A DNA stretch of 64,000 nt, taken from a virus. Shown here piece by piece: positions 9,562 to 40,149 of this stretch. The stretch's first letter is position 1, and every line of letters begins with the position of its first letter. A program made the translations under genes and the position numbers. A model generated the notes under the pieces. That model had not been told where the DNA came from. It made no database searches and saw only the letters and a program-made list of their open reading frames with translations. The stretch is taken from positions 62,001-126,000 of the IMG/VR virus record IMGVR_UViG_3300022213_000237; one strand, 5' to 3'.

Positions 9562-9566
9562 GAAGC

Positions 9567-20493: not shown

Positions 20494-20500
20494 AAGAGTA

Positions 20501-20788: not shown

Positions 20789-20800
20789 ACTCCGTAATAG

Positions 20801-21100: not shown

Positions 21101-21106
21101 ACTTCA

Positions 21107-21135
21107 TTATTATCAAAAACCATAACTACTGTCAA
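21107..21135 (-). promoter_or_regulatory. sigma70 promoter ending 6 nt before the ATG at 21100
   Basis: On the - strand: TTGACA (21130-21135), 17 bp, TAATAA (21107-21112), 6 nt, ATG. It overlaps the 3' end of the small gene above it. Leaderless transcription is predicted. Confidence 0.6.
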
Positions 21136-21323: not shown

Positions 21324-21327
21324 AATT

Positions 21328-22709: not shown

Positions 22710-22721
22710 CACCCCATTTAG
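22687..22721 (-). other. 13-bp hairpin after the DUF932 gene
   Basis: CTAAATGAGGTGG (22687-22699) pairs with CCACCCCATTTAG (22709-22721) around a 9-nt loop, with one G-U or mismatched position. No U-tract follows on either strand, so it is more likely an mRNA-end stabiliser, attenuator or translation-control element for the small zinc gene than a simple terminator. Confidence 0.55.
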
Positions 22722-22733
22722 CAGTTAGATCGT

Positions 22734-23714
22734 TCACGCGATACGCGTCATTTGCATCACGGTCTGGAACGCTTGAGCCTTCATGGCCACTCCGGAACCA
22801 AACCAGGCGGAGGTAGCGCGAGTAGATTCTGCGGTAGCGTCATTGAAGGTACGGGTGCCGCGCTCGTAGTCAACGAACTCAACGACGGCGTTCAGTCCTG
22901 CCCAAGCCGTCCCGACTATGCCTGATTCCTGGTGACCGCGACCTTGAGTAAACAGTTCCACCACTTTCTCGCGATTGGATTCAGTCCTTCCCGACAGCTC
23001 TTTCGTTTCCCCGCTTTCATCTACTTTATTGGGGAACACCGTGGCGGCAAGTTCCTTCATCTGATTATCAGAGAATGGGGTCCGCGCCATCTTGTCGGCG
23101 AGAATCTCGAATTGAGAGTAATAGCTGTTGGCCGCGCCCAGTGACTTGCGAGCCTCATTTAGCTTATTCATTCCCTTCACGGTGTGACGGATTGCAACCG
23201 ATTCGCGAAAGCGATTCATCACGGCCCGGATTTGGTTAGAGCAATACAGGCGGAAGGGTGAGAACAGGGACCGGTACATCTGGCTTCCATCGTGTGAATT
23301 GATGATGGTGAGAAACTTGGCGACTTCGTCACCCGTGGGTCCGATTTTCATCCTCCCAGGTAATTCAAGCGAGAAGAAGGTGGCTGCGCCGCCATTAAAG
23401 GTGCCGGCTCGAATCATCTTGCACCCGCCTTCGTTCACAAAGTCTTCGACGATAGCCAGTGCGTCACGGTTCTGGAACGGTTGGTACTTGGCGCCGACAA
23501 TACCTAGGGGTGCAAGCGTGTCGGTGCGGACGATGGTTTTGAAGTCTGGAACCTCGACAATACGGTCTCCGACCATGGTTTGCACCGGGCCGGGCGCCAC
23601 ATTCCAGTCGAGTCCAGCCATACTTATAGCCGTTTGAAAGTCCCCGGCTTTGCTGATGTCTTTACCAAAGCCGCCTAAGCGGGGTCCAAGTTGGGTGAGA
23701 GTTTGCTTCTGCAT
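22734..23714 (-). CDS. DUF932 phage/plasmid-like protein
   Basis: 326 residues matching the DUF932 family, found in many phages and plasmids and often highly conserved in length. Recognisable stretches are TLAPLGIVGAKYQPFQN (about 66-82), AATFFSLELPGR, LTIINSHDGSQMYRSLFSPF and IRHTVKGMNKLNEA. The biochemical role is not established in my knowledge; association with DNA repair or defence has been suggested. It has the strongest host-type promoter with a normal leader (AGGAG) in the window, suggesting high early expression. Confidence 0.88.
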   Translation of the reverse strand: MQKQTLTQLGPRLGGFGKDISKAGDFQTAISMAGLDWNVAPGPVQTMVGDRIVEVPDFKTIVRTDTLAPLGIVGAKYQPFQNRDALAIVEDFVNEGGCKMIRAGTFNGGAATFFSLELPGRMKIGPTGDEVAKFLTIINSHDGSQMYRSLFSPFRLYCSNQIRAVMNRFRESVAIRHTVKGMNKLNEARKSLGAANSYYSQFEILADKMARTPFSDNQMKELAATVFPNKVDESGETKELSGRTESNREKVVELFTQGRGHQESGIVGTAWAGLNAVVEFVDYERGTRTFNDATAESTRATSAWFGSGVAMKAQAFQTVMQMTRIA

Positions 23715-23749
23715 TGTGTTCTCCTATTTTGCTGCGGTTGATGTTCCTA

Positions 23750-23778
23750 CTTATACAGTACCGTTTAAGTGCTGTCAA
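23750..23778 (-). promoter_or_regulatory. strong sigma70 promoter of the DUF932 gene
   Basis: On the - strand: TTGACA (23773-23778), 17 bp, TATAAG (23750-23755), then a 35-nt stretch with AGGAG before the ATG at 23714. Full -35 match, 17-bp spacing and a ribosome-binding site make it a typical host-dependent early promoter. Confidence 0.85.
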
Positions 23779-23812
23779 GTGGATTGTTTTAACCGTGCAA
23801 TATAGAAGTAAC

Positions 23813-24103
23813 TTAGCGGCCCGAGGGAGTCTCTGGATCCGGCATTAAAGCTTGTTGTTTTTTGACTGTGGGTTTCGGTGGAGACTCTTCTTGTGGCCCG
23901 TTTTTAGCCGACATCCATTTGACGGCGGCGTTCCCTGAAACGTACAGACCAGCGGCGCCAAGCAGGAACATAAACAACTCTGCCAGAGTCACAGCCAAAG
24001 CAGGATATTTGGCCGTAAGTAACCACGCACCTAGACCTAAAATCATGACGATGTACGCCATGACGAGCTTCCTGCTCTTGTATCCACCGTCTCTTCGGTC
24101 CAT
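23813..24103 (-). CDS. holin-like membrane protein, 96 aa
   Basis: Start set at 24103 (MDRRDGGYKSRKLVMAYIVM), after the stop of the upstream gene; a TTG 5 codons upstream is the alternative. Two TM helices (VMAYIVMILGLGAWLLTA; LAVTLAELFMFLLGAAGLYV) precede a cytosolic Pro/Lys-rich tail (ESPPKPTVKKQ). A charged N terminus, two helices and a hydrophilic tail suit a class II holin. No lysis gene is adjacent; the endolysin is at 40236. Confidence 0.7.
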   Translation of the reverse strand: MDRRDGGYKSRKLVMAYIVMILGLGAWLLTAKYPALAVTLAELFMFLLGAAGLYVSGNAAVKWMSAKNGPQEESPPKPTVKKQQALMPDPETPSGR

Positions 24104-24105
24104 TT

Positions 24106-24462
24106 TTATGATGTCCAACCCACGAGCTTCGCGATACTGGCCGCAATGCCAACCAAGACACCTATGAAGGTCATAATTTTTGCGATTGCTCCCACCACAG
24201 CCACATGAGTGGAGATGGGTTTGACCTCGCTTCGAATTTGTTCGAGATGTTGTTCTACTTCGTGACGAAAGGCGTCAAAATGTTGACTGACTTCGGAACG
24301 GTGCTGTTCAAGATTTGCTTCCTGAGTGTCAGACCTTTTGATATGATGTTCGAGCTGAACCGCTTGTCGACCTAGCGTCTTGTCTACACTAGCAAGATGC
24401 TCTGACTGTTTGTCGATTTTAGCTTCTAGGCGGATAACGATGTCTTTGAGCGGGCTCTTCAT
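24106..24462 (-). CDS. coiled-coil protein with C-terminal TM helix, 118 aa
   Basis: The N-terminal 85 residues form a coiled coil (IRLEAKIDKQSEHLASVDKT), followed by one hydrophobic helix (VAVVGAIAKIMTFIGVLVGI) and a short end. AGGGGAGG precedes the ATG, one of the strongest ribosome-binding sequences in the window. It is paired with the holin-like gene, so a lysis or membrane-anchoring role is possible. Confidence 0.72.
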   Translation of the reverse strand: MKSPLKDIVIRLEAKIDKQSEHLASVDKTLGRQAVQLEHHIKRSDTQEANLEQHRSEVSQHFDAFRHEVEQHLEQIRSEVKPISTHVAVVGAIAKIMTFIGVLVGIAASIAKLVGWTS

Positions 24463-24475
24463 CGGCTACCTCCCC

Positions 24476-24781
24476 TTAGAACCAATTCCAGGTACGAGCG
24501 TACATGTCGGTTTGTTCGTTCTGGGTGAGCATCGCGTTCTGAGCCACGGTGTACGCACTGCAATTGTAGAGCGATAGGAGGCTCTCGAGTCGGACAGTTA
24601 GAACCGTAGCGGAAACGATTTCATCGATAATCAATTCCACGGCATCGGTGTTGTCGTCTCTCAAAAAAACACGGGCACCCTTACGAAATCCAGCAGTTGA
24701 AGCAAAAGTTAATCGACCGTTTGATCCGCCATCAACGCTTAATGCTGTACTCTGATAAGGGGTTTGAAGATCTGTCGCCAT
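24476..24781 (-). CDS. hypothetical beta-rich protein, 101 aa
   Basis: 101 residues beginning MATDLQTPYQSTALSVDGGS. A beta pattern (LTFASTAGFRKGARVFLRDD; ELIIDEIVSATVLTVRLESL) like small virion or tail accessory domains. Encoded on the - strand with the holin-like gene. Role unknown. Confidence 0.7.
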   Translation of the reverse strand: MATDLQTPYQSTALSVDGGSNGRLTFASTAGFRKGARVFLRDDNTDAVELIIDEIVSATVLTVRLESLLSLYNCSAYTVAQNAMLTQNEQTDMYARTWNWF

Positions 24782-24847
24782 AGAGAGCCTAACTCCGGTG
24801 AGTTACAATTGTCACCGTGTAGATTACCGCTCTCCAATTTTGCTCAA

Positions 24848-25348
24848 TTACCGGCGTTTCAGGCCGCGTTTCTTCTTAAGTTTAAGCGCCTTGGGTGCAT
24901 CAGGACCCAAAGTCTTCTGGAGTTCAGTTCGTACCAATCCAGGAACGATGTCGAGCCCTTTAGTCAGAGTCTTTTTAGCCTCATGTCGCGCCACGATCCC
25001 AATTTGATTGGCTATTTTAGCTTCCTGCATGAACTTCTCATCTTCGTCAATCCTGTCTGTCTTTTGATGAAGTTGCGATTCAATGCCCAATAATTTATTG
25101 GCCTGGTCAACAGAGTGGGCGTGAAGTCCGTTCACTCTACCCTCCAGCACCACCAGCTGGCCGCGCATTTCCCCAATACGTTGCCCCAATGACCCGAAAA
25201 GTTGAATAATTTGGTCGATCTTTGCGACTTCGTCTGCGTCCCGCGCTTTGCGGGAACAGTAATTTGGGAAAATTTTCATCAACAAACGGGACTTGACGCC
25301 AAGCATTAAATTGAAGAGATTAAGGATAAAAAGTTTGATTTTAGTCAT
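24848..25348 (-). CDS. hypothetical protein with hydrophobic N terminus and coiled coil, 166 aa
   Basis: Begins MTKIKLFILNLFNLMLGVKS, a hydrophobic basic stretch that may be a membrane anchor. A coiled coil follows (about 45-115; GQLVVLEGRVNGLHAHSVDQ), and the end is very basic (KALKLKKKRGLKRR). No family recognised. The 66 nt to the next gene upstream hold no clear signal. Confidence 0.7.
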   Translation of the reverse strand: MTKIKLFILNLFNLMLGVKSRLLMKIFPNYCSRKARDADEVAKIDQIIQLFGSLGQRIGEMRGQLVVLEGRVNGLHAHSVDQANKLLGIESQLHQKTDRIDEDEKFMQEAKIANQIGIVARHEAKKTLTKGLDIVPGLVRTELQKTLGPDAPKALKLKKKRGLKRR

Positions 25349-25369
25349 AGACTCTAATTAGCTGGGAGA

Positions 25370-25933
25370 TCATGTTTGTTGGTCAGTTACTGATGCGGTG
25401 CTCCAATAGTCTTCTCCAAACCATATTTTCCACTCAGCGGGCATCCACGGCTTGTAGCGTAGGCCCTTACGGAAATTCTCTGGAAGACTGTCGGGTTTGA
25501 TTGGTTTGGAACGCAGTCTCATTCCCGCTTCTTGTGGTGTGCGGTCTCTCTTTTTGCCGTTACACTCTACACAGGCAACAACTATGTTGTCCCAAGTTGT
25601 TTTGCCGCCACGAGATTTTGGGATAACGTGGTCGTAAGTGTAGGTGGATCGAGGTACATCTCGTCCGCAGTACTGACACTTCCCAAAATCTCGAGCCCAT
25701 ATGTGGTCTCGTGAAAATTTGAGTGCTTTCTTTTTGGTCTTGCTAAACTTCACGTGGCGAACCACCGAGGGCATACGGTGAGTGGCGTTAGCCGACCGCA
25801 CCACCCTGTCTTCGTAAGTGGATATTATTTCTACTCGTTCCGAGGCCTGCTCCGAATAGAGCTTAATGAATGCGTCTTTCCAGGATACGATATTTACAGG
25901 CTGATAGGCGCTGTTAAGCACTAACACGTCCAC
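25370..25933 (-). CDS. HNH endonuclease-family protein, 187 aa
   Basis: Begins with GTG (MDVLVLNSAYQPVNIVSWKD), the N-terminal signature of a widespread HNH family (often annotated McrA-like or DUF-linked). The HNH is intact: KCQYCGRDVPRS, TYDHVIPKSRGGKTTWDN, then VACVECNGKKRDR. It lacks the repeats of a homing endonuclease and sits in the early region beside dUTPase, so a role in host DNA degradation, packaging or repair is likelier than homing. Substrate unknown. Confidence 0.87.
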   Translation of the reverse strand: MDVLVLNSAYQPVNIVSWKDAFIKLYSEQASERVEIISTYEDRVVRSANATHRMPSVVRHVKFSKTKKKALKFSRDHIWARDFGKCQYCGRDVPRSTYTYDHVIPKSRGGKTTWDNIVVACVECNGKKRDRTPQEAGMRLRSKPIKPDSLPENFRKGLRYKPWMPAEWKIWFGEDYWSTASVTDQQT

Positions 25934-25975
25934 GACGCAACGCCCTTTCTTGAGTGTGTATCCAGGTTTAGTAGC

Positions 25976-26236
25976 TTATTGATCTATAATCAATTCGTAG
26001 GTGCTATTTTCTGTATTGAATACGATTCGTTGTCCGTTATGTGAAGTGATTTGCTTCACTGGAGAGGTTACCACGACACGAGCCCCTACTCCCGTCAGAG
26101 GCTGATCATTAGCCAGTTGAAATGGCCAACCCACTTTTGGTTCGATCAAAAACGAACCACGCACAGAAGCGGTTCGCAACGGGTTGGCGCTTTTGGCTTC
26201 GGTGATGTTCCCGAGCTTGGTGAGTGTGCCAATCAT
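25976..26236 (-). CDS. hypothetical protein, 86 aa
   Basis: 86 residues beginning MIGTLTKLGNITEAKSANPL and ending in strands (RIVFNTENSTYELIIDQ). Its ATG overlaps the dUTPase stop (ATGA). A small beta-rich protein with no recognised family. Confidence 0.72.
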   Translation of the reverse strand: MIGTLTKLGNITEAKSANPLRTASVRGSFLIEPKVGWPFQLANDQPLTGVGARVVVTSPVKQITSHNGQRIVFNTENSTYELIIDQ

Positions 26237-26688
26237 TTGGTGCCGCTGCTCCCGAATCCGCCAGAACCTCTTTGAGTATCAGAGAGTTCCACAACTTCTT
26301 CGACAATGGGCTGAATCACGGGCGCGATCACCAACTGGGCGATTCTATCTCCATCAGAAATAACAACCGGTTCTGTTCCAGTATTCTGAAGGATTACGCA
26401 TACTTCGCCTCTGTAATCGCTATCGATGGTGCCGGGACTGTTGAGAACCATCAGACCTACCTTGAGAGCTAGACCGCTACGCGACCGCACCTGCGCCTCG
26501 TAGCCTGGTGGGATTTCGATGGCGATGCCAGTGGGGATAAGAGCGCGGTTAAAGGCTCTTATCTTCACCTCTTCGTATAAATTTGCGTGAAGGTCCATCC
26601 CCGCGCTACCAGGAGTAGCGTATTGGGGGATTTTGGCTTTTTCTGTCAAGCGTTTAATCTTTACTATGGGTCGTGTATTTATTGTCAT
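26233..26688 (-). CDS. dut: dUTP diphosphatase (trimeric dUTPase)
   Basis: 151 residues with all five trimeric-dUTPase motifs in order: TPGSAGMDLHA (motif 1), RSRSGLALK (2), GTIDSDYRGEV (3, catalytic Asp), DGDRIAQLVIAP (4) and RGSGGFGSSG (5). Hydrolyses dUTP to dUMP, lowering uracil in DNA and feeding dTMP synthesis. GGA precedes the ATG by 9 nt. Confidence 0.96.
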   Translation of the reverse strand: MTINTRPIVKIKRLTEKAKIPQYATPGSAGMDLHANLYEEVKIRAFNRALIPTGIAIEIPPGYEAQVRSRSGLALKVGLMVLNSPGTIDSDYRGEVCVILQNTGTEPVVISDGDRIAQLVIAPVIQPIVEEVVELSDTQRGSGGFGSSGTK

Positions 26689-26785: not shown

Positions 26786-29700
26786 ATGGCAGGCGAAATC
26801 CCCACTCCCAGATCTTACCAGAGTCTCCTTGGAGATATGATTGATGGCTTTTTGAGCCGTTTCGGTCTTCGAGGCTTACGTGTTGGCGGCCCGATTTTAA
26901 GTATTCTGGAAGACGCGGCCCAAAGCGATTTGCGCGGTTCCCAAGATATCTTTAATCTGCTAGACGCCACAGACATTGACAGAGCCACAGGCTTAGCGCT
27001 GGACCGTAAAGCACTGGACGAAGACCTGTCTCGTTTTCCCATAAAGGCGTCGACCGGTTTTTTAACCATCATCGACAATTCTTTTACCAAAATTTCGTCC
27101 AAAGTTTACCCCGGTGCGGCAGCACCTAATGCCGGTACGACTGTCCTGAAGGTATCTGATGCCTCGGACTTTCCATCCACGGGTCAAGTCTATATTGGTC
27201 GCAATACTTCAAATTTTGAAGGTCCACTTTCGTATACGTCACCAGTTGCAGCCGGTACTTATTGGACCATCACTCTGACGAGCCCCACACTCAGATTCCA
27301 TGATGTGAATGAGACCGTGACCGTGGCTCAGGGCGGTGACCGCGTGGTCGCTGCAGGTACCATCGTACGAACATCACTCAATAATGTGGGGCCGAGCGTA
27401 AACTACAGCATCACGAACCCCGCAACCCTAGTAGACGGCGAAACCGAAATCGATGGGGTATCAATTATTTGTCAACAGCCGGGTACGATTGGCAACGTCA
27501 TTGCCGGCGCAATCAGCGAATTCTCCTCGCCCCCATTTGTGGGTGCTACCTGTACTAACCCTTTACCTATCGACAACGGCCAACCCACGGAAAACGACAA
27601 TTCGTTACGTGAACGTATTAAGGCCACGCGCCAATCACGCGCACGAGGAACTCCGTTAGCTCTCATTACTAACGCAAAAGGAGTTGTTGCCCCAGACGAA
27701 AACAAATCTGTCGTTAGCGCCAACGTGTTTCAGCCCGAAGGCGAGCCCGCGATTTTGTTTATTGATGACGGTACGGGATACGAAGAAGTCGATGAGTCTG
27801 TGGCTCTGGACGTTATCGTCGACGAGGCCTTGGGTGGTGAACAATACCTTAAGCTTTCTACCACGCTGCTACCCGTTACTCAAGCATTTGTCACCTCCAC
27901 TAGCACTACACCGTTTGCGATATCGCCTGGAGCCAAATTGGCGATCAAAGTAGCCGGTGTTTTATCCGAACATACTTTTGAAAACAGCGAGTTCAGGAAT
28001 ATATCCAACGCCACCGCTTACGAAGTAGTTTCGGCAATTAACGGCGACCCGGATCTACTATTCTCTGCTCGTACTGCCAACAATGGGACCAAAGTAGTTT
28101 TATTTGCGCGTACTGACAGTAACGAAGACATTGAAGTTGTAACGCCTGATACCGGTATTGACGCCAACACGTATTTCAATTATCCGGTAGGTACTAATTA
28201 TACTTTGCGTCTTTACAAGAACGACCAGCTTCTTTTCAAAGACGGCAAGACCGCAATCGTAGTTTCTGCGCCACAAAGCAATTGGAGCCCTACCATAGCC
28301 TCTGGAGTTTACCTCAAGCTTAAGGTCGATAGTACACCTGCAATGGTCTACAAAATTGTAGACGCGGATTTTATTAACGCAGGCACTGCATACACGACCG
28401 TCGATAAAGACAACTCCCTTGAATCCTGGGCAAGCGTTCTGAATTCTAGAATACCTGGCATTGATTGCACGGTATCCGCTGGACGTTTGCAACTTGTATC
28501 AAACCGTGGAGCTTCTGGCGTTGCAGCCATCACCATTAGTCAACCCTCAGGCGGTGACAAGGATACCGATGGCGTAACCGTAGTTAACCCATCCAACAAC
28601 TTAGTCCAGAAGGGAGTGTTTACCAGCACCATTGGCTTGACGGCCTCTGGTCGTAACAACGACTACACCCTTAATCGTAATACTGGTGAACTTAAGCTTT
28701 CGGTACCTCTCGCCGAAGATGATGTCCTTTCTGCGGGCACGCTCTTCACGCGCGCATACATCCAAAGCGATGAAATCGCGTCTGGTGTTATTACGTTGGC
28801 CTCAAACGCTAACCTGTTTTTTGTCGTAGATGGGGACGCGTCTATCGTTTCGACGGGTTTGACGGCAGCAACGGAGCTGGATTTGACTAACCCCGCAGGA
28901 GAAAGAAGGCGTTATGCTACCAATCCAAGCGTGGCAATTTTTCAAAACGTTCAGGTTGGCGACTGGCTAGCCTTATGGGACCCCGCGTTTACTGTTCGCG
29001 GGGCGTGGCGCGTTTCTTTTGTTGACCCCGCGTTCACGTATTTTGAAGTCGAACGCAACGTCGCTCACGTAAACGAACTCGGAATCGCCCCCGCTGCTAA
29101 CGGCATGGTGTTTGTTCGTACAGCCGCGCCACTACAACAAGTTGTTGTTTCGTCAGGCGCTAATCGCTTGCTTTCGTCCATTGCGACAGACATTACTGAT
29201 GGTCTAGAAGGCGCCACCGCCTCAGCATATCGTTCCACTTATTTGCGAGTGACAACCGACACCTTTGGATCCAACGGTTCTATTTTCCTCGCTACCGCCG
29301 ATACCGTGGGTCAACAGCTTCTGCTGCCTCGTGGTACTTTGAAGGTGAACTCAACTAACCATCTACCCGCAATAGAATCGGCAAATCGCGAGGCGGGAAC
29401 CCCTAATTTTACTCTGGGTACTATTAGTACGTTGCCTGGCACTCTAGGAACTCAACTAACCCAAGCTGGCGCCACGCTCGATATCGGTGGTCTAATTTAT
29501 TGGCCCCGCCGTCTTTATGGCACAAACGGTGGTTTTGGTAATCTGGTAGACCAGTGGACTCCAATTGATAGTGTCGCTGCGGGTACATACGATTTACGTA
29601 AAACCATGGCCGGTGCCGCGCTCAGCGATCCAATCATTTCGGTTTCTCCATACTCTATAAGCTACGAAGATAACTTAAGCGTCATCCTCGACAGGCAAGA

Positions 29701-32410
29701 TGTCAGCAAAAATTACAATATTCCGTTGTGGCGTAAATCTTCTCCAGTACCTGGCCAAAACTACACCGCCGTAAATTTAGAGCTGCTCGACTCAGATAAC
29801 GGAGACGCAGATTTTTCTGCTGCGTTTGGTGACGACGATGCCTTGTTCTTCCAAGACTGGGCGGTGTTCATGCACGCGCGAGCAAAGTCTCATGGTGGCG
29901 ACGGCGGCTCAGCTCCTCCTGGGTATTCCGATAATAAGGCCCTTTTGTGGAGATATACACTCATGGGAGCGGCAGGTAATCGTGCTACCGTGGCTTACGC
30001 CAACCCCATTGCCGCCAACCAACCCATTACGGCCACAACCAGTAATGGAGCTTTGGCTTCGGTTGAAATTAGATTGCCGAGTGGAGCTGCTCGTGGCGGT
30101 CTCAGTCTTCAAGACAACACCCGCTTTACGACCGCTATTGTGGTTGGTGTACCAGACGATGATGTTACCTATTCGTATAGCGATCTAGTTGCTTCTTACA
30201 CCCGCGTTTCTAATGTCGTTACCGTCACCACCACGGGTAATCACGGTTACGCCGCAGGGGATACTGTTTACACTACCACTGCTGACGTTAACTTCCCTAA
30301 CGGACCCAAAACAATTGTTACCACCCCGGCTGGCAACACCTTTACTTACAATGAGGCGGGAATCAATGCCGGCCCGGTAGCGGGAACTTGCTCGAGTGCG
30401 TCCGCCGCTCCTGACTTTTCAAGTGTAGTTGTTGGTGATGTCGTCAATATCGGAGAAAATACTGGATTCGATGAATCGGCCTTTGGTGCCTTCAGGGTCA
30501 CGGCTAAGACGTCGACCACTTTTACAGTCAAGCGGGTGAGCGGTGAGCAGGTAGCAAATGCAACTCCGGTGTCATTAAATGGAGCAAGCAATTTACAATT
30601 CTATCCAATTGATACGGCCAATAGTAGCGCGGCTCAAATCGCGACATGGGTGAATGCAAATATTCCCTCTATAGTAACCGCAGCGGCGGTAGAGAATGGT
30701 GGCGGTAATCCAGGAATTGGGGTCATTGATAGGTCTACCGAAGCCGAATATCTTGAGGGGTACGGAAATACGACTGCCGGAACTCCTGTCCTGTATTATT
30801 CTCTAGTTGACGGAATAAATTGGGTGAAAGACTGCGATATTACTCTAAGTCCGGCCATCTTTTCGTTTAAGAATGATGTCAATACAGATTTAGTATCAAA
30901 CTCGGATTTTGATAATGAAGAATTCCGTCTCGTTCCTATCTTAGCTAAGGGCATTGTCAATTGCCTCTCAAGTCCAGGCACCAGCGGTTTTTATGCTGGC
31001 AGTGAGGAAAAGCGTTCGAGCCGCGCCGCGTACGTTCAATTAAGCTCTCTAACGGCTGGGTCCGACGGAAGCGTACAGGTTACCGGAGGAACGGCTAATT
31101 CTGTAGGCCCTACGGTAATGGGTTCAGGTTCTCAGGTCGATTCTACTTACACCAAAGTGTCAATACCCGCGACACAGGCAAAGGGTTTGGTTGGAGACCA
31201 GTGGTGCGCTCTTCAAGGTAGTGCGGTACAGCCAAAAGATACGCTACTAACCAGTGCGTCGTCAATTGTTTCTATCCAGCCGGACGGAAATGGTAATTGG
31301 GAAATTAAATTTGATGTGGATCTTTGGAATCACGTACACCAGGATTCTGGTGCTGTTAAATTCCAAATCGACAAAGTCGGCAACTACGCACTCGTTACCC
31401 GCTTCACCGGTACTTTTGGCACGGTTGAAGATGGCATGTGGGTACGTTTCACTTGGACTACGTCTAATTCCGCCAACGCGGGTACCTTTAGAGTTGTGCG
31501 CCAGGTAGATACTACCCACATTTGGATTGAAAATCCTGATGCGGTGGCAGAAACCTTCACGTCTGGGGTATCCGATCAAGTAGAAATTTTCTCTTACGAT
31601 GACATCATGCCCGGCGACACTCTGACCATCGACACGTCAGCATACGGGACCAAGAATCGCGGCACGTTTACAGTAGTAGCGAATTCTGAACTCTCAAACG
31701 ATACTACCCAAGTTAGTATTGCTGGCGACATGGAAGCGTATACGGGGCCCACAGTGCTAGGAGGTAATGTCCAGCTGATTCGGTTCCTGGAAGCTGAACC
31801 TGTACGCATCATCAAGCGTATTTGGACTATGGGTCAGAATACGAACAGCTCTAGCGTGATGGATGTTATATTTGTTGGTGAGACGCTTGCGAATAAGCTC
31901 ACAAGCTCGGCTGGGGTTTCAATCCAACCTCTAGACAAGTTTGAATTTACCACGGACTTAGTTGCTGGTGCAGACGCTTACAGCTACGCAGTAGGTCTTA
32001 TCGGCGAAGTCAATAGAGTTGCTTACGGAGATCCAGCTAACCCATCGGTCTATCCTGGTGTTGTTGCAGCCGGCGCTCAAGTTAATATCTCAGGTCCACT
32101 CATTAAACGAGTAACCGTCTCTTTGGCTGTGCGTTTGCGAACCGGAAGCGCGGCGTCGGTGGCTTCTGATACTATCAATCGCATCAAGAGCGCGGTAGCT
32201 AGCGCCGTGAACCAGACCCCCATCGGGACCTCAATTGCTATTTCCAGTCTTGTCTCGGCTGCTCAAGGTGTTGATGGCGTGACCGCTGTTACTGTTCTCA
32301 GTCCTACTTATGCCTCCGGCAACGACTTAATCGCTGTGGGGTCAAACGAAAAACCAAGAGTCTTGGATCTGGACAATGACGTTCTTGTCGTAACTGTCGG
32401 AGGACAGTAA
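26786..32410 (+). CDS. very large baseplate J-like protein
   Basis: 1874 residues; usual baseplate J proteins have 300-500. The start has AAGGATAATTC before the ATG. The N-terminal part (PTPRSYQSLLGDMIDGFLSR) and GNVIAGAISEF...NDNSLRERIKATRQS (about 235-285) are typical of the T4 gp6/P2 J family. The C-terminal 150 residues (ISGPLIKRVTVSLAVRLRTG; TPIGTSIAISSLVSAAQGVD) are the usual J ending. Between them lie about 1,400 residues of inserted beta-rich domains. It should form the baseplate wedge ring, with insertions facing outward, perhaps as host contacts. Confidence 0.85.
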   Translation: MAGEIPTPRSYQSLLGDMIDGFLSRFGLRGLRVGGPILSILEDAAQSDLRGSQDIFNLLDATDIDRATGLALDRKALDEDLSRFPIKASTGFLTIIDNSFTKISSKVYPGAAAPNAGTTVLKVSDASDFPSTGQVYIGRNTSNFEGPLSYTSPVAAGTYWTITLTSPTLRFHDVNETVTVAQGGDRVVAAGTIVRTSLNNVGPSVNYSITNPATLVDGETEIDGVSIICQQPGTIGNVIAGAISEFSSPPFVGATCTNPLPIDNGQPTENDNSLRERIKATRQSRARGTPLALITNAKGVVAPDENKSVVSANVFQPEGEPAILFIDDGTGYEEVDESVALDVIVDEALGGEQYLKLSTTLLPVTQAFVTSTSTTPFAISPGAKLAIKVAGVLSEHTFENSEFRNISNATAYEVVSAINGDPDLLFSARTANNGTKVVLFARTDSNEDIEVVTPDTGIDANTYFNYPVGTNYTLRLYKNDQLLFKDGKTAIVVSAPQSNWSPTIASGVYLKLKVDSTPAMVYKIVDADFINAGTAYTTVDKDNSLESWASVLNSRIPGIDCTVSAGRLQLVSNRGASGVAAITISQPSGGDKDTDGVTVVNPSNNLVQKGVFTSTIGLTASGRNNDYTLNRNTGELKLSVPLAEDDVLSAGTLFTRAYIQSDEIASGVITLASNANLFFVVDGDASIVSTGLTAATELDLTNPAGERRRYATNPSVAIFQNVQVGDWLALWDPAFTVRGAWRVSFVDPAFTYFEVERNVAHVNELGIAPAANGMVFVRTAAPLQQVVVSSGANRLLSSIATDITDGLEGATASAYRSTYLRVTTDTFGSNGSIFLATADTVGQQLLLPRGTLKVNSTNHLPAIESANREAGTPNFTLGTISTLPGTLGTQLTQAGATLDIGGLIYWPRRLYGTNGGFGNLVDQWTPIDSVAAGTYDLRKTMAGAALSDPIISVSPYSISYEDNLSVILDRQDVSKNYNIPLWRKSSPVPGQNYTAVNLELLDSDNGDADFSAAFGDDDALFFQDWAVFMHARAKSHGGDGGSAPPGYSDNKALLWRYTLMGAAGNRATVAYANPIAANQPITATTSNGALASVEIRLPSGAARGGLSLQDNTRFTTAIVVGVPDDDVTYSYSDLVASYTRVSNVVTVTTTGNHGYAAGDTVYTTTADVNFPNGPKTIVTTPAGNTFTYNEAGINAGPVAGTCSSASAAPDFSSVVVGDVVNIGENTGFDESAFGAFRVTAKTSTTFTVKRVSGEQVANATPVSLNGASNLQFYPIDTANSSAAQIATWVNANIPSIVTAAAVENGGGNPGIGVIDRSTEAEYLEGYGNTTAGTPVLYYSLVDGINWVKDCDITLSPAIFSFKNDVNTDLVSNSDFDNEEFRLVPILAKGIVNCLSSPGTSGFYAGSEEKRSSRAAYVQLSSLTAGSDGSVQVTGGTANSVGPTVMGSGSQVDSTYTKVSIPATQAKGLVGDQWCALQGSAVQPKDTLLTSASSIVSIQPDGNGNWEIKFDVDLWNHVHQDSGAVKFQIDKVGNYALVTRFTGTFGTVEDGMWVRFTWTTSNSANAGTFRVVRQVDTTHIWIENPDAVAETFTSGVSDQVEIFSYDDIMPGDTLTIDTSAYGTKNRGTFTVVANSELSNDTTQVSIAGDMEAYTGPTVLGGNVQLIRFLEAEPVRIIKRIWTMGQNTNSSSVMDVIFVGETLANKLTSSAGVSIQPLDKFEFTTDLVAGADAYSYAVGLIGEVNRVAYGDPANPSVYPGVVAAGAQVNISGPLIKRVTVSLAVRLRTGSAASVASDTINRIKSAVASAVNQTPIGTSIAISSLVSAAQGVDGVTAVTVLSPTYASGNDLIAVGSNEKPRVLDLDNDVLVVTVGGQ

Positions 32411-32412: not shown

Positions 32413-33522
32413 GTGGCCACCTGGAATTCAGTCGTAAGCGGTACGGGCGAAGATTTATATAGCGTCTGGGGTGCTTCCGCAAATGATGTATGGGCAGTGG
32501 GTACAAATGGCACCATATTACACTGGGATGGAGTAAGCTGGTCTTCGGTTGTCAGCGGTACGGCTGCATCTTTGTTTGGTGTCTGGGGTTTTGCGTCTAA
32601 CGACGTATGGGCCTGCGGCACTGGTGGCACCATATTACACTGGGATGGAGTAAGCTGGTCTTCGGTTGTCAGCGGTACGGCCTCAACGCTATTCCGTATT
32701 TGGGGTATTGCCGCTAACGACATCTGGGTTACCGTCCTTGGGTTTGACGCCAATGTTTATCATTGGGATGGTGTATCGTGGTCTGCTGTTCCTGCATTTA
32801 CGAATACAATTAGCGTCTGGGGAGCAGCATCTAACGACGTCTGGATGGGCAGCAGTGGTGGTAAAATTTACCATTGGGATGGCGTGAACTGGTCTCTGGA
32901 TACTACCATAGGAGCCGCCACCGAATACCTTCGACGTATGCATGGTCAAGGACCTAACGACGTCTGGGTTTCCGGAAGTCTTGATATTACCAATACAACC
33001 GGTTTAGTCTATCACTGGGATGGCGTGAACTGGACGTCCTCCTACGCATCACCTGTGCCGCCAGGATCTCTTGAAGGTGTCTGGAGTTTTACCGCCAACG
33101 ACGTTTGGGCCTCTTCAACCGATGGTTATGTCGTGCACTGGGATGGCGTCAGCTGGACACCAGACAACATTTCGGCTCTACAACTAAAAGGTATTTGGGG
33201 TTTTGCCGCCAACGACGTTTGGGTAGTGGGCTCATCTGGAGAAATATTACATTACACAGATGTAGTTAGCCCTCTTACCTTAGTTCATGCTCAAGCTCCA
33301 GATACTAGGCACGTGGACGTAATCTTCTCATTGCCTGTGGTTGAGCCCGAGGCTTTACTTCCCGAAAATTACGAAATCACTGGGGCCGGCGGGTTAACGG
33401 TTTCGGCGGTGACTAAAAACAGTGCCACAAGTTACAGACTCACTACTGAACGCCATGTTCCCGGCGGGGCCTATACCGTTACAGCCTCCAATATTCATAG
33501 CCTCGACGGGGATCTAATCTAA
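32413..33522 (+). CDS. seven-bladed 'NDVW/HWDG' beta-propeller tail protein
   Basis: 369 residues, GTG start behind GGAGG. Seven repeats, each with NDVW(A/V)xG and most with xxHWDGVxW, spaced about 39-45 residues, form a propeller (about 3-285). A C-terminal Ig-like domain follows (PENYEITGAGGLTVSAVTKN). Repeats of this kind are known to me mainly from secreted proteins of myxobacteria and related bacteria. Position in the tail block and a surface-type fold suggest host recognition. It touches the J gene and the Kelch gene with 1-2 nt overlaps or gaps. Confidence 0.85.
   Translation: MATWNSVVSGTGEDLYSVWGASANDVWAVGTNGTILHWDGVSWSSVVSGTAASLFGVWGFASNDVWACGTGGTILHWDGVSWSSVVSGTASTLFRIWGIAANDIWVTVLGFDANVYHWDGVSWSAVPAFTNTISVWGAASNDVWMGSSGGKIYHWDGVNWSLDTTIGAATEYLRRMHGQGPNDVWVSGSLDITNTTGLVYHWDGVNWTSSYASPVPPGSLEGVWSFTANDVWASSTDGYVVHWDGVSWTPDNISALQLKGIWGFAANDVWVVGSSGEILHYTDVVSPLTLVHAQAPDTRHVDVIFSLPVVEPEALLPENYEITGAGGLTVSAVTKNSATSYRLTTERHVPGGAYTVTASNIHSLDGDLI
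32509..32681 (+). repeat. two 56-nt exact repeats within the propeller gene
   Basis: The segments 32509-32564 and 32626-32681 are identical (117 nt apart, one 39-codon blade). Such identity shows a recent duplication or gene conversion between neighbouring blades. Confidence 0.9.
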
Positions 33523-36500
33523 TGCCATCGTCAACAACATTTACCGGCGCTTCCTTCGCCCTCCTCAGCGTATCTCAACAAGCCCCGGCGGCGCTGCGTC
33601 TTAATTTTACAGATGAGCCTTTGCAAGCGAGTTCGTCCGGTGCCAATGACGGTCTCAATCCTCTAAACTATTCACTCAGTGGGCCCGCTATCAACAGAGT
33701 GAGCAGCGTGCAGACTATTGGTGGAGAACCCCAGTCTCTGTATTTAATTCTCGCCGCCCCCTTGATTCCTGGGACCTGGGAAATATCTGTTTCGAACGTT
33801 GAGACACCTTTGGCGGTTGGTCTTAATAGCCCTTCGGCTCTAACTTTTACGGCTTCAGCTTTATCCTCAATTCCACCGCTTTCGCAAGGCAGTATTAACG
33901 ACGATGAAGAAACTCTGCTTCGTAAGCACTTGCCTATGTCCATGGTTGGACGCGGCTGGGACGCCTTAATTGCGGGTCTGGCTGTTGGTGACCGGTACCG
34001 AAACCAACAAGCTTTACTTGCCTTTGACCAGTTATTCAAAACAAGCGCGAGCGGTATCTATCTCGATCGACGTGCTGCGGATGATGGATTTACGCGGCCC
34101 CCAGATATTGGAATGGGCGATGATGTTTTTCGTAAGTTGGCAATAAAAACAACTGCGCACAAGCAAATCGTGCAAGTAATGCTTGAGACTCTCGAAGCCT
34201 ATTACGGCAGCGACTCTACCCGCGCTCATATCACCACGACCACAGTCGAACCATGGAATATCGAAGACGGAGACACTCTTTTAGTACAGATAAATAACGA
34301 TGTAGTTACCATTACTTTTAGAGACGACGATTTTTCTCTCCCCACTGGAGCTAAAGCAATTGAAGTGGCAGCGGTTATTACCAGAGAATTAGCACGCGTG
34401 GGAGTATCTGGGTACGCAATACCATTTACCGACCCTACAGTAGGAGCCGCCTTCGTCAAAATCTATTCCGGAGCTTTAGGTCTCTCCGGGGCTGTGCGCA
34501 TTCGTGGCGGAAAAGCTCAAAACGAGCTGTTATTCCCTACAGAAATTCATAATTCTGCCGAAGGTCCTCAGCCAACTACGGCCTTCACCATTACTGAAGG
34601 CACAGACCTCAACGGGATCGAAGCAGGACGGGTACGTTTTATTTTTAATAGCGGTACAAATCCACAACTGGTACGTGTTCGAGCAGGCGATTATGTCAAC
34701 ATTTACGGTCCAGTGTTTGCTGCTGGATTTCGTGGCACCTACGAGGTGACCGACGCTTCTCCAGAGTATTTTGAAATCTCTAACAGCCTGCTTACTTGGC
34801 CGGCGTCGGTGACTTTAACGGATTATAACGATATACGGTTCTATCGTCCTAAACGCTATACCATCCTCTCGGAAGAGAGTTATGCTCTAGCCACTCAAGC
34901 AGACCCACGAGTATTGAATGTACTCTTGCCTGCTACGACCGCTGCCGTTAATCGTGAACGCTTCACCGGAGCGTATCTACACGATGGAGAAGCTCTAGAT
35001 ATCTCGAGCGCTACGAGAGACACCACAGGTACTCTCACTATAAATACCGCATCAAACCACGGTCTTGCGGAAGGAGACTGGATATTTATTGACGGGCTAT
35101 ACCCCACTATTGGTGGTGTAGTCGGACTTGGATGGAATGATGCCGACGTCACAACAGACAGTCTGCCTCACCAAGACTCTGCGTCCATAAAGCTGGCGAG
35201 CGGCCAAGTATTACAATGTGGTGGATACACGGTCGGGCCCGTATCACAAACAGATGCACGACTTTTTGATCCAAGCATAGATACATGGACTGTGGCCGCG
35301 AGTATGAGTATTGCCCGCGCAGGCCACACTCTGACGATGTTAAATAGCGGTAAGATTTTGGTCGTTGGTGGTACCGCATCTAAAATAGCAGAACTTTACG
35401 ACGTCGAAGACGACGTCTGGACCGAGACGGGCAGCACAACCGATTCTCATTCTTACCATACAGCTACCTTATTAGCAGACGGCAAGGTGCTGATTACTGG
35501 CGGAGGAGGAAGTGCCGAGTTATATAATCCGGCAACTGGTACGTGGTCCGTGCTTATGAATCAACCAACGGGACGGACCAACCATACAGCAACTTTGCTT
35601 GGCGACAATCGGGTATTGATTACTGGCGGTGCCGGTGGTGGCGATACTGCCGAAGTCTACAATCACGTCAACGGGACTTGGATGGCGACCGGCAACATGA
35701 CGATTGAGCGCGAAAGCCATGTGGCAATTAAGATGCCTACGGGTACGTCCTCGAATGTGTTAATTGTTGGTGGCGTAGATAGCTTAGCAAATCTTCTTTC
35801 GAGCGCGGAAGTATTTAATCCCGCGACTATGAGTTTTACTGCCATCGACCCCATGGGAACCACCCGCTCTGCACCCGGTATCGCTATTCGTTCCGATAAT
35901 AAAATACTGGTGGCTGGCGGCATATACACTGGTGTATCGGTTTCAGATACAGCGGATCTATATGACCCTATTCGTAATAGATGGACGGCGGTAACTGGTA
36001 CCTTCAACACCGCGCGTTCAAATCCCAACACCATTAATTTGGACGATGGTCGTGTTTTATTGGTTGGTGGCACTGGAGCACAGGCGGTAGCACACAAATA
36101 TACCGGTGCTCCCGTAAACTCCGGTTGTCTCAATGGTTTATTCCGAGTAGATTCAATTGTCGATCCCAATACATTGACGGTACTTACGCCCGACACCGCA
36201 ATAGAAGTGACTTGCGGGGCCGTAGGCACGGTGACTCCTACAACGGCAATAACGGACACCACTCCGGGACCATTTATTTTTGATCCTTCCGGCTTGAGTC
36301 CGGCAATCACCGCTGTTTCTACGACTTTGAACCAACAGCTGGTGATTGGTAACAACTACACCTCCATAACACTGACAGACGCTTCTGAATTTCCGGATCA
36401 ATCTGGATGGTTAGTGTTTGGTCATGGAACCGAATCACAGATTGCACCCGTTAAGTATTTGGGACGTATTTCAAACACCGTTATTTTGCTTGACCCCAGC

Positions 36501-36827
36501 TTTGTCTTACCTGAGACATTAGATATCGGCACTGACGTAACCCTGCTCTGGGGTCGAGGCGCGTTTGAACCAGCTGAGGCTGAGTCGGTGGGCGCGTTTT
36601 ATATTACTGCCGCAGCGGCGGGCAGGATAGCGGCGGCCAAAACCATAGACAGTTTAGTCGCAGCAGGAGTACAAGTCGACAAAACCGTTATCTATCCCTC
36701 CGATGTGGGGTTGGGCAACGCCGGATATCCGATATTAGACACAGTTAAAATCTCAGACAAATTACAAATTTGGGGCGGTGACGATATCGACATTGAAGTC
36801 GAAGACGCTCGGGACGGTAAACACTAA
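33522..36827 (+). CDS. tail/baseplate protein with Kelch propeller
   Basis: 1101 residues. An N-terminal Ig-like domain (about 20-110) resembles the one ending the previous gene. Residues 125-300 look like a baseplate or tail module (DEETLLRKHLPMSMVGRGWD; MLETLEAYYG). At about 530-870 there are seven Kelch-type motifs (GKILVVGGTAS, GKVLITGGGG, RVLITGGAGGG, NKILVAGGIYTG, GRVLLVGGTG), giving a second propeller, unrelated in sequence to the first. The C terminus is beta-rich. Together the two genes suggest a rim of carbohydrate- or protein-binding propellers on the baseplate. Confidence 0.82.
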   Translation: MPSSTTFTGASFALLSVSQQAPAALRLNFTDEPLQASSSGANDGLNPLNYSLSGPAINRVSSVQTIGGEPQSLYLILAAPLIPGTWEISVSNVETPLAVGLNSPSALTFTASALSSIPPLSQGSINDDEETLLRKHLPMSMVGRGWDALIAGLAVGDRYRNQQALLAFDQLFKTSASGIYLDRRAADDGFTRPPDIGMGDDVFRKLAIKTTAHKQIVQVMLETLEAYYGSDSTRAHITTTTVEPWNIEDGDTLLVQINNDVVTITFRDDDFSLPTGAKAIEVAAVITRELARVGVSGYAIPFTDPTVGAAFVKIYSGALGLSGAVRIRGGKAQNELLFPTEIHNSAEGPQPTTAFTITEGTDLNGIEAGRVRFIFNSGTNPQLVRVRAGDYVNIYGPVFAAGFRGTYEVTDASPEYFEISNSLLTWPASVTLTDYNDIRFYRPKRYTILSEESYALATQADPRVLNVLLPATTAAVNRERFTGAYLHDGEALDISSATRDTTGTLTINTASNHGLAEGDWIFIDGLYPTIGGVVGLGWNDADVTTDSLPHQDSASIKLASGQVLQCGGYTVGPVSQTDARLFDPSIDTWTVAASMSIARAGHTLTMLNSGKILVVGGTASKIAELYDVEDDVWTETGSTTDSHSYHTATLLADGKVLITGGGGSAELYNPATGTWSVLMNQPTGRTNHTATLLGDNRVLITGGAGGGDTAEVYNHVNGTWMATGNMTIERESHVAIKMPTGTSSNVLIVGGVDSLANLLSSAEVFNPATMSFTAIDPMGTTRSAPGIAIRSDNKILVAGGIYTGVSVSDTADLYDPIRNRWTAVTGTFNTARSNPNTINLDDGRVLLVGGTGAQAVAHKYTGAPVNSGCLNGLFRVDSIVDPNTLTVLTPDTAIEVTCGAVGTVTPTTAITDTTPGPFIFDPSGLSPAITAVSTTLNQQLVIGNNYTSITLTDASEFPDQSGWLVFGHGTESQIAPVKYLGRISNTVILLDPSFVLPETLDIGTDVTLLWGRGAFEPAEAESVGAFYITAAAAGRIAAAKTIDSLVAAGVQVDKTVIYPSDVGLGNAGYPILDTVKISDKLQIWGGDDIDIEVEDARDGKH

Positions 36828-37249
36828 TGACACAACCAAAAGTATTGCGTGGTGCCGATATAAAGGTTTACATCAATGGACAACCCATTGGCGTAGCCAC
36901 TGCCGTTCGTTGGGAAGCTTCAGACGGACGTCACGCCATTTATGGCATTGATCAATATACGCCATTCGAACTCGCGCCCGGACAAACAGAGATTAAAGGC
37001 ACTGTTGAATTGGTACGACTACGTATCGACGGAGGACTTGAGGGTCGAGGTATTCACGCCCCAGAGAGCAAGATCATGCTTGAAAAGTATTTTGCCCTAG
37101 CTTTAGTTGACCGCTCTACCGATACGGCCATACTAGTAGTCGATAATGCTGCTGTAAATCAGCAGAGTTGGCAAGTTATGGCCAAGGGCGAAGTCACCGG
37201 ATCTTTTACCTTCGAAGGAATCGGGTGGACGAACGAAACCGGTCTTTAA
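36827..37249 (+). CDS. tail-tube-like protein, 140 aa
   Basis: 140 residues; the ATG overlaps the preceding stop (TAATG). The pattern VYINGQPIGVATAVRWEASD, then TEIKGTVELVRLR and KGEVTGSFTFEGIGW matches small beta-barrel tail tube or tube-initiator proteins of contractile tails. It lies directly after the baseplate genes, so a baseplate hub or tube initiator is more likely than the major tube. Assignment is from overall pattern only. Confidence 0.65.
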   Translation: MTQPKVLRGADIKVYINGQPIGVATAVRWEASDGRHAIYGIDQYTPFELAPGQTEIKGTVELVRLRIDGGLEGRGIHAPESKIMLEKYFALALVDRSTDTAILVVDNAAVNQQSWQVMAKGEVTGSFTFEGIGWTNETGL

Positions 37250-37314: not shown

Positions 37315-40149
37315 ATGGCAATTAAGCGACAACAACTGTTTTTGGGTCAGGAGCGTGTTGACGTCTCCGACTTACGCTCAATCGAATCAGCTATCTCCAA
37401 CGATTTCGATGTTCTCGGCGGTAAGATGCTGTCGGGCCGGGCACCTCTTGTCCTACGTGGATTCACCATTTCCACCACCAATACAGTCGGTACTCCCGCC
37501 GACAGTCTCTCGCTCTCAGTAGCTGGTGGCGTGCTCATGCACTATGGTGCGGCAGAAAGTGGTACTCTGTTCGCTGTAGACGACAACGTTACAGCCGAAG
37601 TGCTTGCGGCCACTAACACGAACGTTGAGGGGGCCTTCACAGCCAGCTCTATCAATTATATCGGACTAGACCTTCGCCGTTCGATTGACGCCACCACGAC
37701 TTCACTCAAGCAGTTCCTGGACGCAAATACGAATTTAGAAATACCTAGAAGCGTGCCCGTGGCCCGCACCCTAAATTATGTAATTATTGTTTCCTCACAG
37801 CCATTCAGCGTATCGACCAATATATTGCCAATCGCTGAAGTAGAGACAGATAGCTCTAACTCTGTAGTCACTATCACTGATTGTCGACCGCTAATGTTTC
37901 GTCTTGGGACAGGAAGCGATAATCCTAATCCTGTGGCAGCGTTTTCTTGGCGTGACACCACTCGCAAAGAGAATCATTCACCATACGACCCCGCAAACGC
38001 CTATACTGATGATCCTTTTGCTGGTGGCGACAAAGAAATTAGATCCCTTAAAGAATGGATGGACGCTATTATGTCCGTGCTCTGGGAATCTAAGAGCGGA
38101 GAATATTGGTACAGTCCGACCACCCGCGACGACGTGAAGATGGTTTTTGGTCCCAACGTGTTTATTGCCACTGGAGACAACTTCATCTGGAATTCGACGC
38201 CCGACACTCTCGAGTGGCAGGGGCTGTTTATCGCCTTCGGCAATTCCACTGGTTACTATAACATCATTGACGACGGTACGGCGCTGCTTGATACCGACGG
38301 CCAGTGTCTGTATGTGGACATTCAGCGCGATACGAACGGTGCCACCATCGTTCCTGCCGTAGGCACTTTAACTTCTCTTGGTACGCCTGAATTACCGGGA
38401 TCGCGTTTCATCATTGCGTGGCGTATTGACGGTGAAATGCAGATTCGCGATAAAGCTTACGAAGTGGGCCGTACTTTCCCGATAGCGACAACCACGACCA
38501 CAGGCGATGTGCGGCTAAATGAAGCTGCTGCTACTCCATCGACACCTACGGTAATCACCGTTGGTGTAAATAATCAAGTTCATATCGGTCAAGGCGCTTA
38601 TGCCGCCACTGGCAACAACGACGCGCTGATCGTTGAAGGTAGCGGTACCGGTCGAGCCATACGTGCTGTAGGTGATACTGGGACAGCAATTAGTGCTGTA
38701 GGTGGTGGTTCTGCGGGTGTAGGTGGTGTTGGTGTCGCGGCTGAAGGCGGCGCTTCCACTGGCGCTGCTGGTGGTATTGGCGGCGACTTTTTGGGCGGCG
38801 GCACCTCAGCTGCTAGTGCTGGCGGTGATGGCGTCCACGCTACTGGCGCTGACCATGCTGGTGCAGGTAATGGCGGCAAAGGTATAGTCGCGTTAGGTGG
38901 TACTTCCGACAACGCTGACGGAGGTATTGGTGGAGATTTCACAGGCGGCTTAGCGGGTCCAGGTGCTGGTACGGGCGGAGCCGGTATCGTCACAGTAGGT
39001 GGCGAAGCCGATGTAGGTGCTGGCAACGGTGGCAACGGAATCACCGCCACTGGTGGTGTCTCTGCCAGCGGCATAGGTGGTAACGGTGTTTACGCTACTG
39101 GTAGTACCGGCGGACACGGTGTTGTTGGTACTGGTAGTACCGGCGGACACGGTGTTGTGGGCATCGCCGTCGACGCTACAGGATACGGATTACAGGGCGT
39201 TGGATTCGACAATAACGCCGGTAATGGTTCTGACGGTGCGTCCATCAGCGCAGGCGACGCCACAGGAGCCAACGGCAATGGCGGTGTCGGTATTACTGTA
39301 GTCGGAGGTGATGGTGCCGGAGGCGTAGCCGATGTTGGTGGCAAGGCCGGGGTATTTACCGGTGGTGCAGGTACGACACAAGGCGGTCATGGTATAGAAG
39401 CTACAGGTGGTGCTGCTTCTGGTGGTACCGACGGTGTTGGTGTCGCGGGTACTGGTGGTGGCACAGACGGTATTGGCGTAACCGGAAACGGAGTAGGCAC
39501 GGGCGCTGGTGTAAGTGGAACCGGTGGAGCTAGTATTGGCACTGGTGTTCGTGGGCAAGGCGGTGCTGGTGGAGGAAAGGGCGTAGAAGGTACTGGTGGG
39601 AACGCTGGTGGGCCTGGAGTTTCAGGAATTGGCGGTGCTGGCAACGGTACTGGAGTCGCAGGAGAAGGCAACGGTACTGGGATGGGCGGTGCATTCTATA
39701 ACGGTACTAACGCGACAGGAGCTACTCCACAAGTAGCGTTAGAAGCAGTTAATGGTAATTTTAAAATGTCCGGGACTACGCCTAATAGCGACGTAGCTCC
39801 AGGGGCAAACACTTTGACTCCAGGACTGATACCCAAAGCTTGGGTGGTAATTAATCATAATACGCTTACTGGTGCCAATACTGTAATTGCTGGGCAAAAT
39901 ATACATAGCACCATAGGTGCCAGCGGCAATAACATTACAGTAACACTCCAACAAGCTGTTACTTCCAACAACGTATGTACGGTCGTTACAGGATCATCTC
40001 CTGGTGGGACGAAAGCTTTTTTCTGGACTGCTAGTTCCGGCGCTAATCCAATTACTATTGGAGCTTGGACTGCTACAGGTACTCCTTACAACTTAAATGG
40101 TACAGGCGATGCCTTTACCATTCATGTGGTTGTGTTTGGTCTACAGTAA
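37315..40149 (+). CDS. tail fibre with long Gly-rich region
   Basis: 944 residues. The N-terminal 390 residues include a baseplate-attachment type start (MAIKRQQLFLGQERVDVSDL) and beta-rich domains. From about 400 to 800 the chain is Gly/Ala/Thr-rich with irregular G-G-x-G-V repeats (TGGHGVVGTGSTGGHGVVGI), like collagen-like or Gly-rich shafts of phage fibres. A C-terminal globular domain of about 120 residues (AWVVINHNTLTGANTVIAG) ends the fibre and may be the receptor-binding tip. The endolysin gene follows. Confidence 0.82.
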   Translation: MAIKRQQLFLGQERVDVSDLRSIESAISNDFDVLGGKMLSGRAPLVLRGFTISTTNTVGTPADSLSLSVAGGVLMHYGAAESGTLFAVDDNVTAEVLAATNTNVEGAFTASSINYIGLDLRRSIDATTTSLKQFLDANTNLEIPRSVPVARTLNYVIIVSSQPFSVSTNILPIAEVETDSSNSVVTITDCRPLMFRLGTGSDNPNPVAAFSWRDTTRKENHSPYDPANAYTDDPFAGGDKEIRSLKEWMDAIMSVLWESKSGEYWYSPTTRDDVKMVFGPNVFIATGDNFIWNSTPDTLEWQGLFIAFGNSTGYYNIIDDGTALLDTDGQCLYVDIQRDTNGATIVPAVGTLTSLGTPELPGSRFIIAWRIDGEMQIRDKAYEVGRTFPIATTTTTGDVRLNEAAATPSTPTVITVGVNNQVHIGQGAYAATGNNDALIVEGSGTGRAIRAVGDTGTAISAVGGGSAGVGGVGVAAEGGASTGAAGGIGGDFLGGGTSAASAGGDGVHATGADHAGAGNGGKGIVALGGTSDNADGGIGGDFTGGLAGPGAGTGGAGIVTVGGEADVGAGNGGNGITATGGVSASGIGGNGVYATGSTGGHGVVGTGSTGGHGVVGIAVDATGYGLQGVGFDNNAGNGSDGASISAGDATGANGNGGVGITVVGGDGAGGVADVGGKAGVFTGGAGTTQGGHGIEATGGAASGGTDGVGVAGTGGGTDGIGVTGNGVGTGAGVSGTGGASIGTGVRGQGGAGGGKGVEGTGGNAGGPGVSGIGGAGNGTGVAGEGNGTGMGGAFYNGTNATGATPQVALEAVNGNFKMSGTTPNSDVAPGANTLTPGLIPKAWVVINHNTLTGANTVIAGQNIHSTIGASGNNITVTLQQAVTSNNVCTVVTGSSPGGTKAFFWTASSGANPITIGAWTATGTPYNLNGTGDAFTIHVVVFGLQ
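39097..39158 (+). repeat. 33-nt tandem repeat in the fibre shaft
   Basis: ACTGGTAGTACCGGCGGACA and the next nine bases occur at 39097-39125 and again at 39130-39158, a period of 33 nt (11 codons). It encodes the GSTGGHGVVG motif. This kind of repeat lets the fibre change length by slippage. Confidence 0.85.

Follow-up and report, generated by a model that had tools for sequence, protein, structure and literature searches.

The phage Mx1 (OR576727), with a genome of 169,621 bp, infects Myxococcus (PMC10720576). It is the first known Myxococcus phage and an old cultivated model on Myxococcus xanthus; no work on its receptor was found in the open-access literature. Donor-strand complementation in pili is defined by two features, namely that one protein lacks its last strand and that the protein after it carries a donor segment (PMC6615685), and no donor-strand joint in a phage baseplate was found in the open-access literature.

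We analysed a 64,000-nt stretch of viral DNA (the window), which covers bases 62001-126000 of a virus record of 169,567 bases. The window phage was sister to Mx1 in a tree (support 96/99), and Mx1 is its closest named phage. An earlier interpretation made from the letters alone (the sequence-only reading) had placed two adjacent tail genes at 32413-36827. These ORF coordinates proved right: gene 1 occupies 32413-33522 (369 aa) and gene 2 occupies 33522-36827 (1101 aa), both 3' of a Baseplate_J gene and in an order collinear with Mx1, which agrees with their description as tail genes (Table 1).

Gene organization of the locus

The order baseplate J, Kelch protein, 140-aa protein, fibre-like protein and endolysin is common to the window and Mx1, with identities of 49% for J, 42% for the Kelch protein, 62% for the small virion protein and 60% for the N-terminus of the fibre. 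Unlike the window, Mx1 has no gene between J and the Kelch protein, and so lacks the NDVW propeller gene; its Kelch protein begins at the position matching gene 2 residue 117, without the N-terminal Ig-like domain, and the C-terminus of its fibre differs. The long Gly-rich remainder of the window's fibre-like protein (37315-40149), which is unlike Mx1, adds another variable part to this block. A further block at 19487-26688, between two tail genes, carries helicase, RNase H, Clp protease, DUF932 and HNH genes; its Mx1 counterpart (L004, 3017-9124) carries NAD-salvage and adenylyltransferase genes instead.

Table 1. Features of gene 1, gene 2 and their neighbours, in window coordinates
Feature	Position	Strand	Evidence
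Baseplate J-like protein (1874 aa), upstream neighbour	26786..32410	+	Baseplate_J PF04865, 2.6e-10; 49% identity to Mx1 baseplate J over 98%
Gene 1 residues 1-283, seven-bladed NDVW/HWDG propeller	32413..33261	+	AF2; Foldseek; 46% identity to a Myxococcales protein
57-nt perfect direct repeat, copy 1 (blade 1)	32508..32564	+	Sequence; D1/D4 repeats
57-nt perfect direct repeat, copy 2 (blade 2)	32625..32681	+	Sequence
Gene 1 C-terminal Ig-like domain (Ig1); ORF stops before expected last strand	33262..33519	+	Nine-phage alignment; relatives match Big_5 PF13205
TAATG stop/start overlap, gene 1/gene 2	33520..33524	+	Sequence; junctions of relatives
Gene 2 residues 1-9 (MPSSTTFTG), F-x-G head, proposed donor strand	33522..33548	+	Conserved in nine phages
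Gene 2 N-terminal Ig-like domain (IgN), residues 12-111	33555..33854	+	AF2 strands; conserved in nine phages; absent in Mx1
Conserved baseplate-region core, N part, residues 117-484	33870..34973	+	77 phage loci
Small beta insert, first half, residues ~490-530	34989..35111	+	Without Kelch in L010
Seven-bladed Kelch propeller, residues ~538-860	35133..36101	+	Pfam; AF2; Foldseek
Small beta insert, second half, residues ~866-912	36117..36257	+	Alignment with L010 and Mx1
Conserved baseplate-region core, C part, residues 916-1101	36267..36824	+	Related loci
Small virion protein	36827..37249	+	62% identity to Mx1; PHROG tail/head matches
Fibre-like protein	37315..40149	+	N-terminal 415 aa 60% identical to Mx1; Gly-rich rest not common to both

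The gene 1 propeller

Seven ND[VI]W motifs were found in gene 1 (residues 24, 63, 102, 141, 182, 229 and 267), together with six HWDG motifs and one degenerate copy (HYTD). AlphaFold2 (AF2), run on an alignment of only 13 rows, modelled a propeller of about 28 strands with a mean pLDDT above 90 over most of residues 1-283 and of 70 and 78 in the lowest 10-residue blocks. The seven NDVW/HWDG blades claimed in the sequence-only reading were thus recovered as seven ND[VI]W motifs in a confident propeller, but the last HWDG is degenerate.

In Foldseek the best match of the propeller was the seven-bladed YCF48 (5ojp; E 1.7e-14, target TM 0.73), which is its closest solved fold; WD40 propellers and the lectin tectonin 2 ranked lower. 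Two homologues of gene 1 (L089 and L093) match PF14870 (YCF48/PSII_BNR). On the other hand, gene 1 itself had no PF14870 match listed at E up to 10, and its identity to YCF48 is 16-18%. Weak Pfam matches on gene 1 (DUF2510 and others) were below cut-off and were set aside. Phage propellers also serve as enzymes (K1F endosialidase) or as parts of the nozzle (T7 and SU10) (PMC10607447), and propeller 1 could likewise have an enzymatic role or act as a spacer in the baseplate structure instead of being a receptor-binding head. However, the Pfam search gave no enzyme family match for gene 1, the nearest folds are YCF48, with the D1 peptide bound in several of the matched entries, and further down tectonin 2, and gene 1 is accessory, being absent in Mx1. 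We therefore regard an enzyme or spacer as distinctly unlikely.

The 57-nt repeat common to blades 1 and 2 points to a recent event, either duplication of a blade or gene conversion; propellers are known to evolve by the amplification of single blades (PMC9218822). A diversity-generating retroelement was also considered, and no reverse transcriptase match was present in the virus record. The same record holds no second copy of gene 1.

The best bacterial matches to the propeller came from metagenome-assembled genomes (MAGs) of Myxococcales and Deltaproteobacteria, and several of these proteins have signal or lipobox-like starts. Such secreted Myxococcota proteins (e.g. L084-L087) carry the same blade motif as gene 1 and are 35-46% identical to it over most of the propeller; unlike gene 1, they are bacterial, several have putative signal or lipobox sequences, and they lack the phage Ig junction. 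As many as 64 stretches of one bacterial genome gave a match. At E <= 1e-20, propeller 1 had matches in 34 out of 114 genomes from the same phylum as a Myxococcales MAG, compared with 0/113 for the phylum of an Acidobacteria MAG and 0/200 for that of a Gammaproteobacteria MAG; the phyla were deduced from the titles of the records. For the NDVW type, this host-side search bears out the earlier statement on secreted proteins of myxobacteria-like hosts.

The NDVW propeller was not found in other phage records. Its gene was absent from the records of five relatives searched one by one (Mx1 and four of 160-170 kb), and two viral-contig scans gave no match; these scans were pattern-seeded, so the absence is suggestive only. 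Pattern-seeded scans with the queries P0002 alone, A2 and P0003 likewise gave no match, and because of the seeding this null is weak; the A2 and P0003 scans missed J homologues that exist next to L007-L083. A capture of the gene 1 propeller from a host-like source is credible on the strength of these sequence comparisons and of the Myxococcus host of the relative Mx1.

Gene 2 and its nested Kelch propeller

Gene 2 contains seven GG Kelch motifs (at 567, 616, 660, 702, 750, 799 and 849), and its Pfam matches to Kelch_6 (8.9e-23; 79.9 bits, cut-off 25.3) and Kelch_1 (71.5 bits, cut-off 20.1) are well above threshold (PF01344/PF13964). AF2 and Foldseek placed a propeller at residues ~538-860 of a gene 2 model with a pTM of 0.41, the nearest solved structures being Keap1/KLHL and designed Kelch proteins (target TM about 0.75). 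The seven Kelch motifs of the sequence-only reading were therefore confirmed, and structure prediction on both proteins (AF2, Foldseek) upheld its view that both folds are propellers.

A scan with the window/Mx1 alignment as query returned 77 viral loci. Most of these encode a core of ~535 aa, without an insert, directly after J. In one relative (L010) the small beta insert stands alone at the loop where Kelch sits in others, and in Mx1, L007, L008, L009 and the window the Kelch domain lies inside this insert; larger inserts with Kelch matches were seen in some Ig-bearing relatives. The Kelch propeller is nested in a loop of a conserved protein and recurs across the Mx1-like clade. In addition, the gene 2 Kelch matches a PHROG family; bacterial replicons encode similar Kelch domains (39% identity), as do the phages phiERICV and D6. 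Since it recurs at one site in Mx1-like phages and matches a PHROG, the Kelch propeller is not a private capture of the window phage.

It is apparent that the two propellers have different histories; of the two, only the gene 1 propeller is well supported as a domain captured from a host-like source. The proposal that both are captured host domains is accordingly credible for the first, but not for a domain that recurs at the same site in Mx1-like phages. A similar division applies to the claim that these propeller types are rare in phage tails: the NDVW type was found in no other virus by the record searches and pattern-seeded scans made here, whereas Kelch recurs in Mx1-like phages and matches a PHROG. 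Propellers in general, taken as a fold, are no rarity among the structural proteins of phages, as seen here and as exemplified by phi11, PhiKZ and PRD1 (PMC4901313).

Several other variations were observed at the related loci. In L011 (10082-14866) the core gene appears split, with Kelch and the C part in the second ORF. In L008 a 903-aa ORF (7265-9976) that resembles a beta-helix spike by eye occupies the interval from J to the core, which in other relatives is empty or holds an Ig gene. Small GIY-YIG-like endonuclease ORFs lie between baseplate J and the core in L024 (2996-3709; a SegE_GIY-YIG match just under cut-off), L026 (5293-6006), L035 (3460-4170) and L052 (9291-9989).

The junction between gene 1 and gene 2

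In the AF2 model of gene 2 alone, IgN is a beta-sandwich with strands within residues 12-111 and its own last strand, and residues 1-9 are disordered (pLDDT <50). Ig1 was modelled poorly (block means 32-66), which may only result from the shallow alignment. Similar Ig-like domains at the end of gene 1 and the start of gene 2 had been noticed earlier; both are there, but their likeness is weak (profile-profile E = 0.002, probability 13%). Neither window protein has a Pfam match to Big_5 (PF13205), which is above cut-off in the relatives L108, L110 and L111.

A scan with the N-terminal Ig-like domain added further Ig-bearing phages, several of them contigs of 160-170 kb, and a later scan added one more. 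In ten phages (the window phage, L007, L009, L108, L110, L111, L112, L113, L115 and L117) an upstream gene ends in a homologous Ig-like domain and the downstream gene opens with an F-x-G head followed by IgN. The stop position of the upstream ORF ('..SNIHDLQGNLI' and variants) is identical in 9/10; that of L007 ends earlier. The F and G of the head are invariant in 9/9 phages, which share ancestry and do not count as nine independent events, and [FY][TSIV]G occurs in 1.4% of background ORF starts. The upstream heads range from 218 to 728 aa, and only that of the window phage is an NDVW propeller.

IgN and the upstream Ig gene are both present in 10 of the 15 Mx1-like members, and the five members without IgN (Mx1, L008, L010, L011 and L029) have no upstream Ig gene either. 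At least four changes are needed to explain the distribution of IgN on the core tree, and a single clade was rejected (p-AU 9e-50); in a first, smaller tree IgN monophyly was not rejected (p 0.072), and it was rejected once seven phages had been added. Therefore, the gene pair is gained or lost as a unit. As judged from this conservation, the Ig-like domains belong to a conserved junction that spans both genes, something the sequence-only reading was unable to see.

Structural proteins of phages often carry added Ig-like domains, and the two products could be independent tail proteins whose Ig-like domains are ordinary decorations, with no docking of gene 1 on gene 2 and an incidental break within Ig. 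This would agree with the outcome of the HMM tests described below, which do not confirm strand sharing. However, the same break residue in nine of the ten phages, the joint presence or absence of the pair over at least four changes, and the F-x-G start in all nine against the 1.4% background argue against independence, which we consider rather unlikely.

Ribosomal frameshifting at the overlap could instead yield one fused protein. The window and several relatives have a 1-nt TAATG overlap, and a fusion would restore the Ig strand order. In contrast, the intergenic gaps at the junction range from -1 to 751 nt, being +21 in L007 and +751 nt with an inserted ORF in L115. In the window the gene 2 frame has a stop at 33498-33500, no slippery site is evident by eye, and most members have a Shine-Dalgarno-like AAGG, AGGG or GGGG before the gene 2 ATG. 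The variable gaps and the extra ORF in L115 indicate two separate polypeptides, and a frameshift fusion is highly improbable. The L115 ORF (6914-7639), exactly between the junction genes, is by eye homing endonuclease-like, with a weak HTH match alone in Pfam.

For two separate polypeptides, a possible mode of contact is suggested by the place where the upstream ORF stops. The Big_5 match ends at profile position 93 of 105 in the terminal Ig-like domains of two relatives, ~12 positions short, and it also stops at position 95 on one internal Ig-like domain (L111). HMM matches stop at 74-85 of 99-101. The F-x-G segment opening gene 2 resembles the apparently missing last strand of the upstream domain, and the last internal Ig-like domains of upstream genes end in [FY]-[TSVI]-G, the motif that opens the next gene. 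The proposed head strand has few alternating hydrophobic residues, and in two HMM tests the addition of the gene 2 head to Ig1 brought no significant gain in fit beyond shuffles in most phages. We propose tentatively, as a possibility and not as the expected outcome, that the split Ig is a standard socket in Mx1-like phages, in which the N-terminus of a baseplate protein would give the last strand to the final Ig-like domain of a separately encoded adhesin, so that heads, including propellers acquired from bacteria of the host group, could be exchanged with the baseplate gene untouched.

Discussion

On balance, we think it somewhat more likely than not that gene 1 and gene 2 together specify a two-part adhesin module of the baseplate in an Mx1-like phage, in which the gene 1 head docks on gene 2 via an Ig-Ig joint and the propellers bind the host surface. 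In such a module, gene 2 would be a conserved baseplate-region protein of the virion bearing a Kelch propeller in a loop, and gene 1 would be a separate, exchangeable head, which in the window phage is a propeller of the type secreted by Myxococcota. The head would be mounted on gene 2 via the Ig-Ig junction, the likely docking mode being completion in trans of Ig1, which appears to lack its final strand, by the first residues of gene 2. Any upstream protein with this terminal Ig-like domain could then be plugged in. The position of the genes and the precedent of other phage propellers suggest that the propellers may bind molecules, probably glycans, on the surface of a myxobacterium-like host.

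If true, the locus would be a specific example of a phage that has mounted a propeller acquired from bacteria of the group it infects. The gene pair, conserved and present or absent as a whole, would also provide a testable docking rule for swapping receptor-binding parts.

PhiKZ gp131C and phi11 Gp45 resemble the window proteins in having propeller domains in baseplate or receptor-binding proteins of phages (PMC4901313). Neither was found as a sequence homologue here, and the phi11 propeller has five blades. To our knowledge, no Ig junction is known for either protein. Chaperone-usher pilins (PMC6615685) are similar to the junction in that an incomplete Ig-like fold could be completed by the N-terminal segment of the next protein, a parallel that makes strand sharing, the most specific form of the docking hypothesis, attractive. 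The junction differs from them in that its partners are phage proteins with Big_5-like instead of pilin domains, and in that strand insertion is hypothetical here; judged by the open-access literature, a baseplate joint of the pilus type would be a novelty.
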